Positions 439-8,614 of a DNA stretch of 8,668 bases are shown in pieces. The first letter of the stretch is position 1; every line of letters begins with the position of its first letter. The translations under genes and the position numbers were made by a program. The stretch is from positions 1 through 8,668 of the forward strand of contig JAEOTI010000358.1 in NCBI GenBank assembly GCA_016839955.1, read 5' to 3'. The notes under the pieces are model-generated. The model saw only the letters and a list, made by a program, of their open reading frames with translations, did not search any database and was not told where the DNA came from. Origin of the DNA: Candidatus Hodarchaeota archaeon. Lineage in GTDB: Archaea > Asgardarchaeota > Heimdallarchaeia > Hodarchaeales > YT1-057.

Positions 439-1542
439 TTAATTGAGTTTCATATAGAATTTTTCTGTTTTATCACTTGTTATTTCATTTGAGCGAATTT
501 TTGTTGAGAATACAATATTATCTAAGTTGATATCTTTTGGCACGTGAATGTAAAAAGGGAGAGAATACCGATCTCTTGGTCTAAGTCGTTCAAAACTAAA
601 TTGTAATGAAAATTCATTAGTAGTTAATCCTTTTTTTATTCTAATAGACGGATTCTTTTCTTTTCGTTCTTTTTTATCCTTTTTAATAATCGATTTAAAT
701 TTATGAATGGTTCTATTAAAAAAATTCATCTGTTTTTTCATTATTCTGTTATAATCAAAAGACTGTTTGTATTGCCATTTATTTATGAATTCAATTCTAG
801 AATCAGTGACACATTTAAACATCGCAGTTATATTTGTTGCCACTTGTTTTCCATCGTTTCTTATGAATAATCTAATAGGAATGTATTTAGGAACACCTAG
901 GTCAAATTTATAACTTTTTTTTATTGTTCTTGCGATTTTTCTTTTTAGATTCTTTTTGTTTGACTTATAATTCGGTTTCGTTGATATATTCAAAATAGGA
1001 AATTGTATTGCATTTAGATGATTAATTATTGTACTTAAGCTCAAATGTTGTTTATTGCCAGATGATCTTATCCAGAATTCATAAGCATCCACTTCTTTTC
1101 CATAGATTCTCTTCAATAGTTTTTGTCTTATTCCATAAACTACTTCATTATTTCTAAAAATTTTCACAATGAGTACAAATTTACCTGATTTTAGTGTAAC
1201 TGGCTGTATTTTCACGAAATTAAGTATGTTGGGTTCAATCTTGGCCGATAAAAGGTTAACAAAGTGATTTTGAAGTTCGTTTTCGTTAAAATTGGGAGAC
1301 CTTTTCATCCCAATCAATTGATGGGAATCATTAAAACCATAGATAATTAGCGCAGCATCAATATCACTATTAGCGAAGGCAATTACATCACGGAGAAATT
1401 CATTACCATACACTTCTTTTTTAGAGATATCATAAAAGGTCTTATATTCAATTCGATGGGATTCAAAATTAGAAGGCAAACTTTCTAGATTTGTGAGGTC
1501 TATTTCTGTTATTTCATCAATTCTTTTCTTGAATATATCCAA
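439..1542 (-). CDS. AlbA_2 (Schlafen-type) domain protein with a novel C-terminal region
   Basis: The protein has 367 residues. Residues about 28-175 match the AlbA_2 putative nucleic-acid-binding domain (Pfam Schlafen AlbA_2 type). The motifs seen are an IEYK opening strand (31-34), the helix FLRDVIAFANSD (49-60), the strand ALIIYGFND then LIGM (64-79), a VLIVKIFRN strand (123-131) and the WIRSSGN block (157-163). The usual AFANxxGG has AFANSDID here, so the glycine pair is replaced. Residues about 190-310 are strongly basic and interrupted, and 221-240 (IPIRLFIRNDGKQVATNITA) looks like a beta strand-turn-strand of an Ig/CARDB-like fold. A second such stretch lies at 319-335. The start is TTG at 1540-1542, because GAGGGG on the same strand lies 5 bases upstream. 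It diverges from tnpB across a 361-base gap. Family members act as nucleic-acid-binding or regulatory modules; the role here is unknown. Confidence 0.8.
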   Translation of the reverse strand: MDIFKKRIDEITEIDLTNLESLPSNFESHRIEYKTFYDISKKEVYGNEFLRDVIAFANSDIDAALIIYGFNDSHQLIGMKRSPNFNENELQNHFVNLLSAKIEPNILNFVKIQPVTLKSGKFVLIVKIFRNNEVVYGIRQKLLKRIYGKEVDAYEFWIRSSGNKQHLSLSTIINHLNAIQFPILNISTKPNYKSNKKNLKRKIARTIKKSYKFDLGVPKYIPIRLFIRNDGKQVATNITAMFKCVTDSRIEFINKWQYKQSFDYNRIMKKQMNFFNRTIHKFKSIIKKDKKERKEKNPSIRIKKGLTTNEFSLQFSFERLRPRDRYSLPFYIHVPKDINLDNIVFSTKIRSNEITSDKTEKFYMKLN

Positions 1543-1644: not shown

Positions 1645-1903
1645 AGTATATTCCAAGACATAGGGATTATTAAAACTTTTCAGCTCCCTAGTGAAAATCC
1701 AAATTTTATTCGATATCTTTTGAAGTAGAGGTAAAAAACTTATGATACAAAACTACTTTTTCTTAGGTGGTTATAAGGAGATTTGCGGTTTCTGCTTTGA
1801 CAAATTATCAAGCTCTCTATAACTTATCTTTTAGAGACTCCGAGGAATAAAACTCGCTTGACTACAACAATTTCCTTAAAAGTGATATTATTTGACAGAA
1901 CAG

Positions 1904-3127
1904 ATGAGAGTCTTCAGAACTGAACGAATCTGGTTAAAACCAACCAAGCACCTCAGACATCTGTGTCATGTATCAAAGAATCTGTTCAATGAAGCAAACT
2001 ATCTAGTTAGACAAGCGTTTTTTAATGAGAAAAAATGGATTCGAGCGACTTTGCTCCTGCAGGAACTTTCAACTTCCCCTAATTTCCAAAAATTGTCCGT
2101 TCCTACGGCTCAAAAGATATTACAGCTTGTAGATAAAGCTTGGAAGTCTTTCTTTACCGCGTTAGCAGATTGGCAGTTAAACCCTGAGAAATATTTTCAG
2201 AAACCACGAGTTCCAAAATACAAACCGAAGGACGGGGAATTTCAACTAGCCTTTACAAAAAACCAGCTCATCTTTTCAAATAAAGTTCTTACCTTACCCC
2301 AACAGACAGGTGTACAAGTAAAACCACGATTCTCTTCCGTTACATCGCTTGTAAGTGTACGGGTTACACCTAGAGGAGTAGGATATGTGTTAGAAATTAT
2401 CTACTCAAAAGAAATTCCTAGAATTCCAAAACGTGGTCCTCTTAATGTAGTTGGAATAGATATTGGACTCACTAACCTCATAACCATGGCAAATAACATT
2501 GGGAAAGAACCAATTGTTATTAAGGGTGGGGTGGTGAAATCCATCAATCAATACTATAATAAAGAACGGGCACGATTACAACATATCTATACTAGACAGA
2601 AATTAAAAACGGGGAAGCAGTTAAGGAAATTAGCTGATAAACGAAGTAGAAAAATAGACAATTATTTCCACGAAGTAAGTCATTCTATTTTGAAGTGGTG
2701 TAAACAGAATAATATTGATACAATAATAATTGGTCGAAATAAATACTGGAAACAACAAATCAATTTAGGGAAGAAGGTCAATCAGAATTTTGTGTTAATC
2801 CCATTCAATCGTTTAGTCCAAATGATTCGGTACAAAGCCCAGGATGCAGGAATTCGTTTTATTTCATTACGTGAGGATTATACCAGTAAATGTAGCTTTT
2901 TGGATAAAGAACCAATTGCAAAACGATCCCACTATGCAGGTGAACGAATAACGAGAGGGTTGTACCGGTCTAAAACGGGAACGCTAATTAATAGTGACGT
3001 TAATGGCGCATATAATATTATTAGAAAGGCAGTCCCGAACGTATTTTCCCAGTGGGAGACTACAGACGGGATAGAGGGTGTGTTGTTACACCCAATAAGA
3101 TGGAGCCTAGCCACGGTAACGAGCTAG
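1904..3127 (+). CDS. tnpB: TnpB-type RNA-guided nuclease of an IS605/IS1341-like element
   Basis: This is a full-length, uninterrupted protein of 407 residues from the ATG at 1904. A TTG four codons upstream (1892) is also in frame, but relatives usually begin a few residues before the RTxxIWLKP block seen here at residues 5-13. Family knowledge: TnpB is an omega-RNA-guided DNA nuclease that helps IS200/IS605 elements persist, and it is the ancestor of Cas12. The RuvC motifs are GIDIG with D186 and INSDVNGAYNI with D365. The RuvC-II position, usually IxxE, reads IIIGRNK with G277, while REDYTSKCSF carries E324. This is typical of a TnpB branch with a relocated glutamate. Only one cysteine (C330) of the usual CxxC...CxxC zinc ribbon is kept. 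The block GRNKYWK...NLGKK.NQNF at about 277-296 is characteristic of this branch. No tnpA is present in the window. No Shine-Dalgarno is evident. Confidence 0.92.
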   Translation: MRVFRTERIWLKPTKHLRHLCHVSKNLFNEANYLVRQAFFNEKKWIRATLLLQELSTSPNFQKLSVPTAQKILQLVDKAWKSFFTALADWQLNPEKYFQKPRVPKYKPKDGEFQLAFTKNQLIFSNKVLTLPQQTGVQVKPRFSSVTSLVSVRVTPRGVGYVLEIIYSKEIPRIPKRGPLNVVGIDIGLTNLITMANNIGKEPIVIKGGVVKSINQYYNKERARLQHIYTRQKLKTGKQLRKLADKRSRKIDNYFHEVSHSILKWCKQNNIDTIIIGRNKYWKQQINLGKKVNQNFVLIPFNRLVQMIRYKAQDAGIRFISLREDYTSKCSFLDKEPIAKRSHYAGERITRGLYRSKTGTLINSDVNGAYNIIRKAVPNVFSQWETTDGIEGVLLHPIRWSLATVTS

Positions 3128-3408: not shown

Positions 3409-4560
3409 TTGGGTGTTATAATAGAAGATTTAGAACCAATTAAATTCAAATATAACTTAACCATTATTGAAAAAATATTTCTAGTATTCATTTATTCAGG
3501 GCCAGAGCTTTTCGCCCATTTACTTATAACATTGCGAGCTAAAACGAGTAGAGAAAAACTCAAAAAAGCCATAAGTATTATAATTTGGGCTATTTTGATT
3601 CTATGGATTTTTCTAATCTTTTTTAACATATTTACCCTGAATTTTACATTTAGTATAGTTCTTTTTTTATTAGCTTATATTTTTTCATCACTAATCGAGA
3701 TTCCTTATATCTCTTTCAATGATTTTGAAGAAAATCTATTCTCGAAGGATTTTTCAAAATATGTAAAGATTTCAGCTTCAATAGGATTTCTATATTGGAG
3801 TTTAATCTTTATATTACTCATAATCACAGGGATTTTACCTATAGACTTAATTACACAAATACCTCAAAACTACCTTGATTTCCAATTCTGGGTGATTCTC
3901 TTCAATAAATCTATTCATTTATTTGGGTTATTATTCTTTTTTACAATTTTATTCCATTATTATCTCGAAATAATAACGTTTAAACAAAAAGAGTGTTATA
4001 AATATTTTAGAGAAACACAAAAAAATTTACCAACTTTGCTAAACATCGGTAAAAATAACTTGATATATAACAGAATTTCTTGGTATGCTTTCCTCTTAAT
4101 CCCAACTGGATTCGAGCTAAAATTAGAGAGATGGCATACATCTATTGAATTTCAGGATTTTTTTGAAGGTTTTGAGGGCAAATCATCCCAAAAAAAAAGT
4201 TTTTTTTTATTAATTTTTTTTGTCGTGACTGTGATAATTAATATCGGTCCTTTAATAGTAATAAATCCTCCATTAATCGATTTAACAAATGTAGAACCAA
4301 ATAATATAATATCTTTCGTGATCATTGCGTTTGTATTCTTTTACAATGTGATTCCTGAGTACTTTAGAGGAAAGAGATGGAAAGAAAACATAGATTCGAT
4401 TATTAGACGCATAGTTGCTAAGGTTGATGATTCAAGTCTTGATGCTAGCCACAAACAGGAACTTATAAACTATAAAGCCAAATTAGAAAAATTGGAATAC
4501 GAATCAGGATTAAGAAAATTAATAAAAGACTTTATAAAGAAATTATTACCAATAGGGTAA
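3409..4560 (+). CDS. Unrecognised integral membrane protein, about six transmembrane segments
   Basis: The protein has 383 residues and I do not recognise its family. Strongly hydrophobic segments lie at about residues 54-75, 78-100, 122-144, 160-187, 264-287 and 297-316. A weaker amphipathic stretch is near 20-40. Between the fourth and fifth segments is a soluble loop of about 75 residues (188-263). The C-terminal part from about 320 to 380 is charged and probably helical, ending in a basic stretch (IKDFIKKLL). The start must be the TTG at 3409: no ATG exists in the N-terminal part, and a weak purine-rich AGGGA lies upstream. There is no cleavable signal peptide in view. The reading frame crosses an A9-G-T9 run (4190-4208) at residues about 261-267, so it is open to replication slippage. 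It converges on the large NTPase-LRR gene. No function is assigned. Confidence 0.75.
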   Translation: MGVIIEDLEPIKFKYNLTIIEKIFLVFIYSGPELFAHLLITLRAKTSREKLKKAISIIIWAILILWIFLIFFNIFTLNFTFSIVLFLLAYIFSSLIEIPYISFNDFEENLFSKDFSKYVKISASIGFLYWSLIFILLIITGILPIDLITQIPQNYLDFQFWVILFNKSIHLFGLLFFFTILFHYYLEIITFKQKECYKYFRETQKNLPTLLNIGKNNLIYNRISWYAFLLIPTGFELKLERWHTSIEFQDFFEGFEGKSSQKKSFFLLIFFVVTVIINIGPLIVINPPLIDLTNVEPNNIISFVIIAFVFFYNVIPEYFRGKRWKENIDSIIRRIVAKVDDSSLDASHKQELINYKAKLEKLEYESGLRKLIKDFIKKLLPIG

Positions 4561-4747: not shown

Positions 4748-7700
4748 TTATCTTAATTTAGATTTGTTTAAAGAAGCTTGAAGCTTTTTCAGTTCTTCAT
4801 TCCTGAATTCTCGATCATGAGGAAAAAGTTCAGAATTTTCCTGTAAATTGAGCCATTCTAAGTTCGTTAAGTCACCTAAGGAATCGGGGAATTTTACCAA
4901 CTGATTCATTGATAGATCTAGATATTTTAGGTTGGATAGGTCACCAGTGGATTCTGGAAGCTGCGATAACTGATTGTTGGCTAGACCCAACCTTTCTAAA
5001 TTTAGCAAGTTACCAAACGACTCGGGGAGCTTGGTTATCAGGTTGTTTGACAGTTCTAGTGATGTTAAGTTTGACAGACCACAAATTGATTGTGGAAGCT
5101 GCGTTAATTGATTGTTAGATAAATCCAGATCAAACAATACGAGATGGTCAAGACAATCTGGAAGGTGAGTCATCTGATTGTATGATAGATCTATTGATTC
5201 CAAATTATATAGCTCACTAATGGATTCTGGCAAAATTGTCAAATTATTGCGACGCAAATCCAGGGTTATCAGGTTTATTAGGTTACCAAACGACTCAGGG
5301 AGCTGCGACAACTGATTGCGGGACAAATCTAGATGTTCAAGGTTTGATAAATTTTTAAACGAGTTGGGTAACAGTTGTAATTGATTTCGAGATAAATACA
5401 GGGTTGTTAGTCGTATCAGGTTACTAAATGACTCGGGGAGCTGTGTCAACTGATTGCGGGATAAGTCTAGATAATCGAGGTTTGTCAGATTTCCAAATGA
5501 ATTAGGGAGCTGAGTCAGCTGATTGTGACTCAATTGTAGAAGATCAAGGTTTATTAGATTTCCAAATGACTTGGGAAGCTGTGATAACTGATTGTGAGAT
5601 AATTCTAGAGAGTCAAGGCTCGTTAGATTCCCAAATGAGTCAGGGAGCTGTTGTAACTGATTGGAAAACAAATTTAGATAATAAAGATTTGTTAAATTCC
5701 CAAACGAGTCAGGGAGTTGCGTCAACTGATTTAATCCCAAAGATAACCTTTGGAGGTTTGAAAAGCTACCCAACCAATCAGGAAGCTTTTGGAATTGATT
5801 ATCTGCGAGTGAAAATTCTCGGAGCTCAACCAAATTACTAAAGGAATTAGGGAGCTGCGGTAACTGGTTACCACCGAGGTCGAAAACTTTGAGATTACAT
5901 AAGCTACCCAACCAGATAGGAAGTTGTTGTAATTGATTACTTTTTAGATTTAGCTCTTGAAGTTCTTGAAGCCCCCTTAACAAAGGAGGAACATGCGAAA
6001 GAGAAAGTCGTGTAAAATTAATCTTTAACAAAGATTTTTTTTCAATGTCAAATCGGTAAATAATTTCCCCCCATGTTGTCGGAGGAAGTAAAAATGGTTC
6101 GAAAATTGAAATAAGATCAAGATTTAAGCTTGGAGTGTCCTGTAAGCGTATGACCAATTCTTCTCGAGTAATCGGCCAACCAAACTCTTTAAAAAGATCA
6201 AATCCATGGCCAAGACCACTATAACTCCTTCCAAGAAGTTCAAGAAGAGTTTCTTTTTCCTTGTCGATCTCTGACCAAAGCTTAAAGGCAAGTCTAATAT
6301 GAAGAAAATCAATTTTCTTAAGGGGATCAGAGAACTTTTCAAGAGGTTGTGGTGGTAACAATCTTATTCCTTCTCTCTTAGGAAATACCCAATCCTTAAC
6401 CATATCAATTAAAGAGTCCTCCCAGTGATGCTCATCACCTAAGATAGCAATGAGCAATTGTTTCTGTTCCTTTGTAGATTCCTTTAATACATGTATTACT
6501 TCTTTTAATGGCACTGGATTTCCATTATATAAAAGAAAGAGGGCAGCGAATAACCAGTAGATAATTTTCGGTATATTTTTTTCTTTAAAGAATTCTATTA
6601 TTCTTTTTTCCAAATCCCCGATGATTACACCAACTTCCCACGGGCTATTAATTGAATCCCAGTCTAGGATAGTTGGTTTATTATAACCAGTCACATCTAC
6701 TGCCCAATGACTCCATACTCTAAAAAAAGGTTCAATTCCAGCCCATTCCTGTCTATAATTTATGATACTTTGTTGATAAGTTGCTGACAGCCAAATCTGT
6801 TTATAGTTAGATTCTTCCTGAAATGATGGAGTTGTATATCCACCGAGCCACCACGTGATTGATTTGAAACGGTCACCGATTAAATTACTGAAATTTTCCC
6901 TATTCTCCTTTGCTTTATGGTGAAGATCATCGAATATTAACAGTAATGGTTTGTTATTCACATCTTTAATCCTTTCTTCTAATAAATTTCCCAAGTTACT
7001 CCATTGTTTGAAAGTCATGTCAGATGAACTGTAACAATAAAGAATTTCTCCTTGAAGATTTTCTTTTTTCCATAATGCCGCCAGATAAAGCAGTTTTCGG
7101 CTTTTTCCTGTACCTGACTCCGCAAAAACTGCCGCACGACCATCATTCCTTAAACTTTGCCAGAAAGGGTTGATAGCTATATCCAACGGGGGAACAGTTA
7201 TCAAAGTATCAGCAAGATAATTATTCGAAAGACCCCGAATACCATTAAAGAGTAAAACAAGCCGTGATTCAATCCAACGCTTACTGTCTTCTTCAGAAAC
7301 TACTGGTTGCCACTTTTTATTCCATTCTGTAATCCATGATTCAGGTGTTTGAAATCCTGATATTGGTGGTGGAAGATCTTCAATATTGAGTGTTGTTGGT
7401 ACTGAGGAATAGCAAACCTTCTCATAGCTTGGAAGTTCCCATTCTAAAGCTGTGAAGAAATCTTGTAGTCCAAATTGTTGGACAACATCATTGATAGTAG
7501 ATTCGATCCTCTCAAATTCAGAATTTGGAAGAAAGATACTCATCGCTTTTATAGGTTCTAAATTCTTGTCATGATCCTCTTCATATTCAAAAGCAAACCA
7601 TAAGCATAATAAGACTGTAATTGAACAAAAAAACTTCTGAATACTTGGAATAGTCTCATCGGAAGAAAAGAACGTATTTTGTTCAAACCGATAGAAGCTT

Positions 7701-8614
7701 TGATCTTTTTCATTTAAAATAAAAGCGTTATCATCGGTTACTCCGCAAATCCATTGCAGGTTTAGCGGATCAATTACTTTTTTTACTTTTTTAGCATATT
7801 TATCATCAATAATATATGCTTCAGGTATTTTGGGGTGTCTAATATCTGTAGAACGATGAACAATAAAATCCTTTTTATGATTCACTCGATCATAAAAATT
7901 CCGTGAATTAGACGGATCCAGCAAAATTGCCTGAAGTAAAAAGTTCTTTGAGATCCATAATTTCTGATAATGAGAGTAACAGAATACAAAAGCTAGAAGT
8001 AGCTCTAGATGATAAGGATTCGTAGCGACATCCCTAATTCGTTTGTCTTTACGAAAAACTGACTGATCCTGACTCAAATAAATGCCAAGAACCTCTAGAA
8101 GCATTTCTTTTGCTTTTAAGAAGAGTGTATGTACGGTCTCAGTCTTAGGACTTCCTACTTGAATGATCTCAAATGGATTTTGCTTGAACAGGAATGTAGC
8201 ATGTTTTTTTGTTAAAAATTCCTGCAATTTCTCCCAATATGTATTTTGAAAATCAGAAATCCCCTGTAATATTAGCTGATGATGACCTTCATGATGAACT
8301 GTGTCAATGTACCTTCTTTGAAATTTTTGCAACCAAACCAATAAGTGCTCTTTTGTAAAAGATCTTAGAGGATTTCTTGTGTTAGCAACAATTTCATCAC
8401 TATAAAAAATTTTAAACAAAAATTGAATAGTCTGTTGCCGGTCGACGACATTCAGTCCTATACCTAAGAGTTTTCTGAGGGATTTTACATATTCTTGATC
8501 CTTCACCAGTTCTATCCCCATTATGAGATTTTTTTTATTTGTGAGATGTGCGCGAAATTCGCATTTGAATTTTTTTGACCATAACGGGGAGATAGGAGAA
8601 CAATAATCCGACAA
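4748..8614 (-). CDS. Large NOD-like-receptor-type protein: unknown N-terminal region, P-loop NTPase, leucine-rich repeats
   Basis: The protein has 1288 residues from the TTG at 8614. An in-frame ATG at 8521 (residue 32) is an equally good start, giving 1257; neither has a Shine-Dalgarno sequence. Residues about 35-480 match no family I know and hold a histidine-rich stretch, VHHEGHH (106-112). The NTPase follows: Walker A is AESGTGKS (498-505), with A where the first glycine is usual, and Walker B is LLLIFDD (557-563). After it comes a helical region (about 680-870) that could hold a winged-helix and linker, then 17 leucine-rich repeats (874-1263), and a short basic cap. No signal peptide or membrane segment is clear, so it is probably cytoplasmic. 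NTPase-plus-LRR order is that of STAND/NLR switches, which typically sense a ligand with the repeats and oligomerise on ATP binding. A role in antiviral defence or signalling is inference. Confidence 0.85.
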   Translation of the reverse strand: MSDYCSPISPLWSKKFKCEFRAHLTNKKNLIMGIELVKDQEYVKSLRKLLGIGLNVVDRQQTIQFLFKIFYSDEIVANTRNPLRSFTKEHLLVWLQKFQRRYIDTVHHEGHHQLILQGISDFQNTYWEKLQEFLTKKHATFLFKQNPFEIIQVGSPKTETVHTLFLKAKEMLLEVLGIYLSQDQSVFRKDKRIRDVATNPYHLELLLAFVFCYSHYQKLWISKNFLLQAILLDPSNSRNFYDRVNHKKDFIVHRSTDIRHPKIPEAYIIDDKYAKKVKKVIDPLNLQWICGVTDDNAFILNEKDQSFYRFEQNTFFSSDETIPSIQKFFCSITVLLCLWFAFEYEEDHDKNLEPIKAMSIFLPNSEFERIESTINDVVQQFGLQDFFTALEWELPSYEKVCYSSVPTTLNIEDLPPPISGFQTPESWITEWNKKWQPVVSEEDSKRWIESRLVLLFNGIRGLSNNYLADTLITVPPLDIAINPFWQSLRNDGRAAVFAESGTGKSRKLLYLAALWKKENLQGEILYCYSSSDMTFKQWSNLGNLLEERIKDVNNKPLLLIFDDLHHKAKENRENFSNLIGDRFKSITWWLGGYTTPSFQEESNYKQIWLSATYQQSIINYRQEWAGIEPFFRVWSHWAVDVTGYNKPTILDWDSINSPWEVGVIIGDLEKRIIEFFKEKNIPKIIYWLFAALFLLYNGNPVPLKEVIHVLKESTKEQKQLLIAILGDEHHWEDSLIDMVKDWVFPKREGIRLLPPQPLEKFSDPLKKIDFLHIRLAFKLWSEIDKEKETLLELLGRSYSGLGHGFDLFKEFGWPITREELVIRLQDTPSLNLDLISIFEPFLLPPTTWGEIIYRFDIEKKSLLKINFTRLSLSHVPPLLRGLQELQELNLKSNQLQQLPIWLGSLCNLKVFDLGGNQLPQLPNSFSNLVELREFSLADNQFQKLPDWLGSFSNLQRLSLGLNQLTQLPDSFGNLTNLYYLNLFSNQLQQLPDSFGNLTSLDSLELSHNQLSQLPKSFGNLINLDLLQLSHNQLTQLPNSFGNLTNLDYLDLSRNQLTQLPESFSNLIRLTTLYLSRNQLQLLPNSFKNLSNLEHLDLSRNQLSQLPESFGNLINLITLDLRRNNLTILPESISELYNLESIDLSYNQMTHLPDCLDHLVLFDLDLSNNQLTQLPQSICGLSNLTSLELSNNLITKLPESFGNLLNLERLGLANNQLSQLPESTGDLSNLKYLDLSMNQLVKFPDSLGDLTNLEWLNLQENSELFPHDREFRNEELKKLQASLNKSKLR
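4826..5995 (-). repeat. Tandem leucine-rich-repeat coding array, about 17 units of 69 bases
   Basis: The encoded unit is 23 residues, with consensus LPxSFGNLxNLxxLxLSxNQLxQ. Units begin at residues 874 (degenerate), 898, 921, 944, 967, 990, 1013, 1036, 1059, 1082, 1105, 1128, 1151, 1173, 1196, 1219 and 1242. The unit starting at 1151 is one residue short. The central units (967-1127) are the most alike and keep SFGNL or a close variant. The flanking units diverge, with WLG near the start and DCLDHL, SICGL and STGDL near the end. At the DNA level the similarity shows as regularly spaced GGGAGCTG-like words on the + strand. Such tracts bind proteins or other ligands and can expand or contract by recombination. 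Confidence 0.88.
7100..7126 (-). other. Walker A motif region of the NTPase
   Basis: These codons specify FAESGTGKS (residues 497-505). The lysine-serine pair that holds the nucleotide phosphates and magnesium is intact. The first glycine of the GxxxxGKS pattern is alanine. With LLLIFDD 52 residues further on, this supports a working P-loop NTPase. Confidence 0.8.
8552..8562. repeat. Short G+C-rich palindrome between the two possible starts of the NTPase-LRR gene
   Basis: GCGAA-A-TTCGC is a perfect inverted repeat with a single central base, in otherwise A+T-rich sequence. It lies 30 bases upstream of the ATG at 8521. If translation starts there, the palindrome is in the leader and could bind a regulator. 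If translation starts at the TTG at 8614, it is simply coding sequence. Confidence 0.3.

Follow-up and report, generated by a model that had tools for sequence, protein, structure and literature searches.

Here we describe a gene for a protein resembling NOD-like receptors (NLRs) in an 8,668-nucleotide stretch of contig JAEOTI010000358.1 (assembly GCA_016839955.1, Candidatus Hodarchaeota archaeon), which was analysed over its whole length and is called the window below. The layout of the encoded protein, an unrecognised N-terminal region followed by a P-loop nucleoside triphosphatase (NTPase) module and 16-17 leucine-rich repeats (LRRs), was observed directly, as were the Walker motifs of the NTPase, the pattern of the repeats and, in other genomes, homologous NTPases with swapped N-termini. 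Of these observations, the exchange of N-terminal domains on a shared NTPase carries most weight. We consider it likely that the gene encodes an NLR-like signalling protein, in which the LRRs would sense a trigger, a STAND-like NTPase would act as the switch and the N-terminal domain as the effector. The gene and its parts are as follows, with residues numbered throughout according to the listed open reading frame (ORF) of 1288 codons.

4748..8521, minus strand: NLR-like gene, likely coding from the ATG (ORF residues 32-1288).
4862..6031, minus strand: leucine-rich repeats, 16 strict units and one degenerate unit (Pfam, pattern count and unit alignment).
6179..7525, minus strand: conserved NTPase module, consisting of a pre-NTPase linker, the P-loop core and a helical part ending in an FxH motif (residues ~364-812, from homologues and models).
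7526..8521, minus strand: unrecognised N-terminal region, a candidate effector or signalling domain (ORF residues 32-363).

The 1288-codon ORF (4748-8614, minus strand) was confirmed. Its listed start, the TTG at 8614, is simply the first one inside the window edge, and the reading frame stays open to the window end; the single ATG within the first 60 codons is residue 32 (position 8521). A sequence-only reading of this DNA had proposed an NLR-like architecture, which our analysis supports. Under the strict definition of an NLR, a NACHT or NB-ARC module combined with LRRs, the protein has the LRR sensor and lacks the module: Pfam gave no match to NACHT (PF05729) or NB-ARC (PF00931) in the window protein up to E 10, and strict membership therefore fails. 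The comparison with NLRs is fair in the sense that the protein would work like one. Comparison of the full protein with the PADLOC models also gave no match up to E 10.

The repeats could be delineated clearly. Sixteen strict LRR units occupy residues 885-1251 at a spacing of 23 residues (22 once) and are preceded by a degenerate unit at residue ~862, so that the 17 repeats counted earlier are a fair description. Pfam matched LRR_8 at E 3.4e-55. A looser LRR pattern gave 18 hits in the protein, with 16 lying after residue 850; in 200 shuffles, the same pattern averaged 4.9 hits and never exceeded 12. Positions 1, 6, 9 and 15 are invariant across the 16 units and the DNA differs there only silently, which indicates that the repeats are under selection at the protein level. 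Entropy was highest at positions 2, 3 and 8 (2.95-3.03 bits), which we take to be exposed on the concave face, as in known LRR proteins. These variable positions would look like the expected binding surface, although they name no ligand.

Whole-genome search of 227 Asgard-phylum genomes returned NTPase matches at E<=0.01 in 11 of them. Strong matches (E<=3e-30) came from four genes in three genomes, and these align with the NTPase module, not with the N-terminus of the window protein. The four were kept out of 12 matches and the remaining eight (E 0.001-0.008) were dropped; among the latter, L050 and L051 are one conserved protein of 579-597 amino acids with a partial match, and L054 is a different P-loop protein. 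Eight weak rows of a further profile search were also dropped (E 1.6e-4 to 0.0085), and another row was a second piece of the homologue L046; the weak rows L069 and L072 look HerA-like by eye. As a separate observation, L054 (880-3249, from another genome of the phylum) appears by eye to begin like a restriction endonuclease and to continue into a P-loop NTPase, and is perhaps a second effector-NTPase protein.

The closest homologue, L046 (genome G003, to which the B3_Heim_120 locus L004 also belongs), is laid out as caspase, NTPase and LRRs, and its NTPase is 39% identical to that of the window protein over 412 columns. Its caspase matched Peptidase_C14 over the Pfam cut-off, and the SCHG and DSCFS motifs in its frame presumably hold the catalytic His and Cys. 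The NCBIfam model of the EACC1-associated caspase matched at E 2e-21, yet reached 76.5 of the 140 bits required. L049 (genome G138) carries a TIR domain (E 1.4e-15) before the NTPase and a C-terminus with no LRR or other Pfam repeat over the cut-off, and L047 (G006, the genome with the YT2_004 locus L024) and L048 (G003) carry a winged helix before the NTPase and no repeat domain. Sequence searches of the PDB returned no chain for the caspase region at E<=0.1 and none for the TIR region at E<=0.01. The same NTPase thus bears a TIR, a caspase, a winged helix (twice) or the orphan domain of the window protein, and an LRR sensor is present in two of the five known members, L046 and the window protein. 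STAND/NLR conflict proteins show this kind of exchange of TIR and caspase on a common switch, which strengthens the NLR-like architecture. Because relatives carry the same switch with a TIR or caspase front, the window protein probably acts as a sensor and sets off a defence response.

Within the NTPase module, sequence comparison located the following motifs.

7100..7126, minus strand: Walker A, FAESGTGKS (residues 497-505).
6917..6946, minus strand: Walker B, LLLIFDDLHH (residues 557-566).
6632..6646, minus strand: SPWEV, with PW invariant in five sequences.
6287..6310, minus strand: DFLHIRLA, with F, H and A invariant in five sequences.

In the P-loop AESGTGKS, an A replaces the usual first G. 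Counterparts of Walker A and B were found in all four homologues, and both motifs are common to other P-loop classes. SPWEV is a possible counterpart of the STAND GxP motif, and DFLHIRLA possibly marks the end of a winged-helix domain; around PW and FxH the predicted local distance difference test values of the model were 43-83 in blocks of ten. In a panel of profiles, the nSTAND5-like group scored best (83.4) and the RFC group second (68.9), compared with 91.0 and 54.9 when the panel comprised only 8 of the 15 loci. In this panel, the nSTAND5 group included L054, itself retrieved with this NTPase query, the wrong P-loop was taken for L082, L101 gave none, L091, which is over the PF25199 cut-off, was placed in 'other', and L084, L085 and L093 were omitted; NACHT (L111, probability 2.7) and SRP (L106, probability 0.9) were represented by one sequence each. 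When folds were compared, the SIR2-STAND protein EfAvs5 of the Avs (AVAST) systems (9jap) gave the widest coverage of the NTPase module at a root-mean-square deviation below 7 among the matches listed, 287 of 388 residues; the comparison extends to those matches, and other families may fit too.

Some results weigh against reading the gene as a STAND-like defence sensor. Curated STAND profiles of Pfam gave no match over the cut-off in the window protein, and in the homologues nSTAND_NTPase5 (PF25199) stayed below the threshold, with the best match (L049) at 20.2 of the 34 bits required and spanning only about 100 columns. AAA+ chains (TRIP13, Mpa and clamp loaders) had Z scores equal to or higher than those of STAND proteins. 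Finally, defence-like neighbours were found at one of the four homologues and not clearly at the other three.

The neighbourhoods of the relatives give a mixed picture of the defence role proposed from the architecture. At the caspase homologue L046, a type IIG restriction-modification-like ORF follows after 0.8 kb (PADLOC E 3e-5) and an Nmad3 ORF after 3.6 kb (Pfam E 5e-9). A 145-residue ORF (L058 4101-4538) lies just upstream and overlaps the start of L046 by 14 bases; it is possibly a partner gene or a frameshift. Its position would suit EACC1, but PF19953 was not found in it, and a search of 101 genomes yielded a single EACC1 locus (L110), which looks like a spurious frame in GC-rich DNA. 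Beside the TIR homologue L049 lie what look by eye like genes for a radical SAM protein and for a small protein of cupin type; the radical SAM protein matched PADLOC PDC-M51A (E 2.8e-11), which may reflect its fold only. Both winged-helix homologues are accompanied by two ORFs, one longin-like (Fuz_longin_1 below threshold, E 0.0055) and one MinD/ParA-like (ParA E 2e-18), between what appear by eye to be enzymes of amino-acid metabolism. A defence role is plausible; the surroundings are defence-like at L046 and not clearly so at the other three homologues.

The surroundings of these three would suit a STAND-like protein that regulates the physiology of the cell itself, acting as a switch of the MalT or scaffold kind with LRRs that sense a cellular protein or metabolite, as would the DNA-binding type of the winged helix in two of the four homologues (PADLOC WH_III-A E 5.9e-5, Csa3 E 4e-4). 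However, the TIR and caspase fronts on the same NTPase suggest conflict or cell death, and the family is rare and patchy among the genomes searched. Moreover, the winged-helix cassette moves between species: two Asgard genomes (L060 8703-12540 and L061 6822-10658) share it at 97.7% identity over at least 3838 bp, while their four long flanking matches are 75.4-80.5% identical, which points to recent transfer. We consider a physiological regulator unlikely.

Still less probable is a fusion of LRRs to a P-loop machine of the AAA+ or another type, with no STAND switch. The Z scores of the AAA+ chains and the second rank of the RFC group are consistent with it; however, those chains aligned over 122-195 residues of the module, far fewer than EfAvs5, and we know of no AAA+ family with effector swapping of the TIR/caspase kind. 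We favour a STAND identity for the NTPase, based on its nSTAND5 resemblance and the fold coverage. The STAND membership suggested earlier is favoured, short of proof, by the best profile group and the wider coverage; it lacks a profile match over the cut-off and a lead in Z over AAA+ chains. Weak Pfam matches to AAA_22 and SPASM lay below the cut-off and were rejected as domains.

The N-terminal region is the exchanged part of the protein. With the front of L049, the window protein shares only the short pre-NTPase linker at residues ~364-396 (E 0.002), strong similarity to L046 begins at residue ~405, and the N-terminus did not match the caspase part of L046 (E 0.41). This puts the border near residue 364, where the shared linker begins. 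The region was earlier described as about 480 residues long with no recognised motif; the length shrinks to about residues 32-363, whereas the lack of a recognised family or homologue stands. Pfam, NCBIfam, PHROGs and PADLOC returned no family at E<=0.001 (for NCBIfam and PHROGs, the region was searched within a longer piece), and the 227 Asgard-phylum genomes gave three matches at E<=0.1, of which the best (E 0.02) comes from a frame of 79 residues interrupted by two stops. Pfam matches to TerL_nuclease (E 0.006-0.011) and mSLOG (E 0.0087-0.035) were below the cut-off and were rejected as domains. A transmembrane N-terminus was also rejected, with a best 19-residue hydropathy of 1.68 compared with 2.99 in the adjoining membrane ORF.

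One segment of this region gave a lead to an effector activity.

7790..7984, minus strand: weak PvuII-like segment (DI..PKIP..Y), a lead only (residues ~211-275).

A PvuII-like (PD-(D/E)xK) nuclease here, activated through the NTPase like the nucleases of some Avs proteins, would be compatible with the NLR-like protein that we propose. The N-terminal piece alone matched PADLOC REase_II at E 0.0048, and a PvuII profile built from 8 of 18 records found gave 9.9 bits (E 2.4e-5 as a single comparison), whereas none of 200 shuffles scored above 4.2 and none of the 285 other ORF pieces above 4.4. However, the family was chosen post hoc from a PDB match (whole-sequence E 0.06, two domains with i-E 20 each), hhalign gave a probability of 1.7, and the weak Pfam matches of the region name other folds. 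The catalytic motif of PvuII is D...ExK, and the alignment covers only the C-terminal part, with no counterpart of the upstream D...ExK visible. Because of the post hoc choice, the low hhalign probability and the missing catalytic counterpart, we give the nuclease only a slim chance.

Searches further afield returned almost nothing, and the absences are weak. In a set of 5.8 billion proteins, there was no match to residues 32-860 (E<=1e-3, scoring the 7994 candidates that shared most words), none to alignment A2 at E<=0.01 and none to residues 32-410 at E<=1; this set failed to return even the L046-type proteins contained in A2. Exact peptide patterns and tblastn against genome_contigs and viral_contigs found no relatives; in genome_contigs, the pattern scan missed the B3_Heim homologues later recovered by whole-genome search. 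No relatives were found in phages and plasmids. PDB sequences gave none for residues 32-860 or for the N-terminal region; a further search returned three RAD51D chains, all at E>1. The NTPase profile A5 found one partial match (E 6e-4) in 292 genomes of the phylum of G009 and none in four bacterial genomes or 350 genomes of the phylum of G521; with no positive control genome, such empty results carry no weight.

In the reading that we consider likely, the protein would work as follows. The LRR horseshoe at the C-terminus would bind a trigger, most likely a viral protein or one from another invader, and this binding would free the NTPase module. The freed NTPase would then exchange or hydrolyse nucleotide and oligomerise, and oligomerisation would gather and switch on the N-terminal effector domain. 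Like the STAND identity and the defence role, the ligand and the oligomerisation are what we infer. Across the family, the effector slot would be filled in turn by a TIR, a caspase, a winged helix or, in the window protein, the new domain.

Similar layouts are known. Bacterial NACHT-LRR proteins have been termed bona fide bacterial NLRs, and the NACHT modules of animal NLRs are held to derive from bacteria (PMC12169576). These bNACHT proteins share with the window protein an N-terminal effector, a STAND-type NTPase and a C-terminal sensor that can be an LRR (PMC12169576); in contrast, the window protein is archaeal, has no NACHT match and has an unrecognised N-terminal domain. Some bacterial STAND NTPases bear an N-terminal TIR or caspase (PMC8195603), and STAND NTPases are among the many partners of the caspase of EACC1 systems (PMC7159879). 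L046 resembles the latter in that its caspase is nearest the EACC1-associated type and a small overlapping ORF lies upstream, but the caspase is under the NCBIfam cut-off, no profile identifies the small ORF as EACC1 and the window protein has no caspase. Unlike EfAvs5, with which it shares no sequence match, the window protein has an LRR sensor and another N-terminus, and EfAvs5 is tied with AAA+ chains in Z. With animal and plant NLRs (NRC2, ZAR1), it shares no NB-ARC or NACHT sequence match, and the likeness may be convergent.

A survey of Asgard defence lists NLR, NACHT and TIR-NLR systems (PMC11291487). At E<=1e-9 we found NACHT in 1 and NB-ARC in 5 of 148 Asgard-phylum genomes, counts that are lower bounds because the threshold is strict. 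In open-licence literature (preprints excluded), no title or abstract among the papers listed by full-text search describes such an Asgard or Hodarchaeal family. The NTPase is apparently a small, undescribed STAND-like family, although the NLRs surveyed in PMC11291487 may include these genes. What is new is apparently an archaeal NLR-like architecture on an undescribed STAND-like NTPase; the layout itself is already known. More tentatively, and with rather less confidence than in the signalling protein itself, these genes might form a separately assembled Hodarchaeal NLR class, independent of NACHT and NB-ARC, that joins an undescribed STAND clade to interchangeable TIR, caspase, winged-helix or orphan effectors, with LRRs in two of five members and the N-terminus of the window protein as a new effector domain.

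The window holds three further genes; the gene upstream of the NLR-like gene falls outside it.

439-1542, minus strand: Schlafen AlbA_2 domain protein (Pfam E 2.4e-13).
1892-3127, plus strand: TnpB (NCBIfam guided_TnpB, 179.7 bits).
3409-4560, plus strand: membrane protein of 383 residues (by hydropathy), convergent with the NLR-like gene and matched by no family of Pfam or NCBIfam.

The TnpB is 73% identical to one in the Hodarchaeota metagenome-assembled genome YT5_056 and has many Hodarchaeota relatives, several of them in YT5_056; 21 of the first 24 of the 45 listed loci with TnpB relatives are Asgard.

If caspase or TIR effectors, an NTPase switch and LRR sensors are indeed combined in one Asgard family, an inflammasome-like layout would exist in the archaeal lineage nearest eukaryotes, carried on an NTPase that is missed by current profiles. 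The family provides an orphan effector open to testing, and its alignment can be used to find further members.

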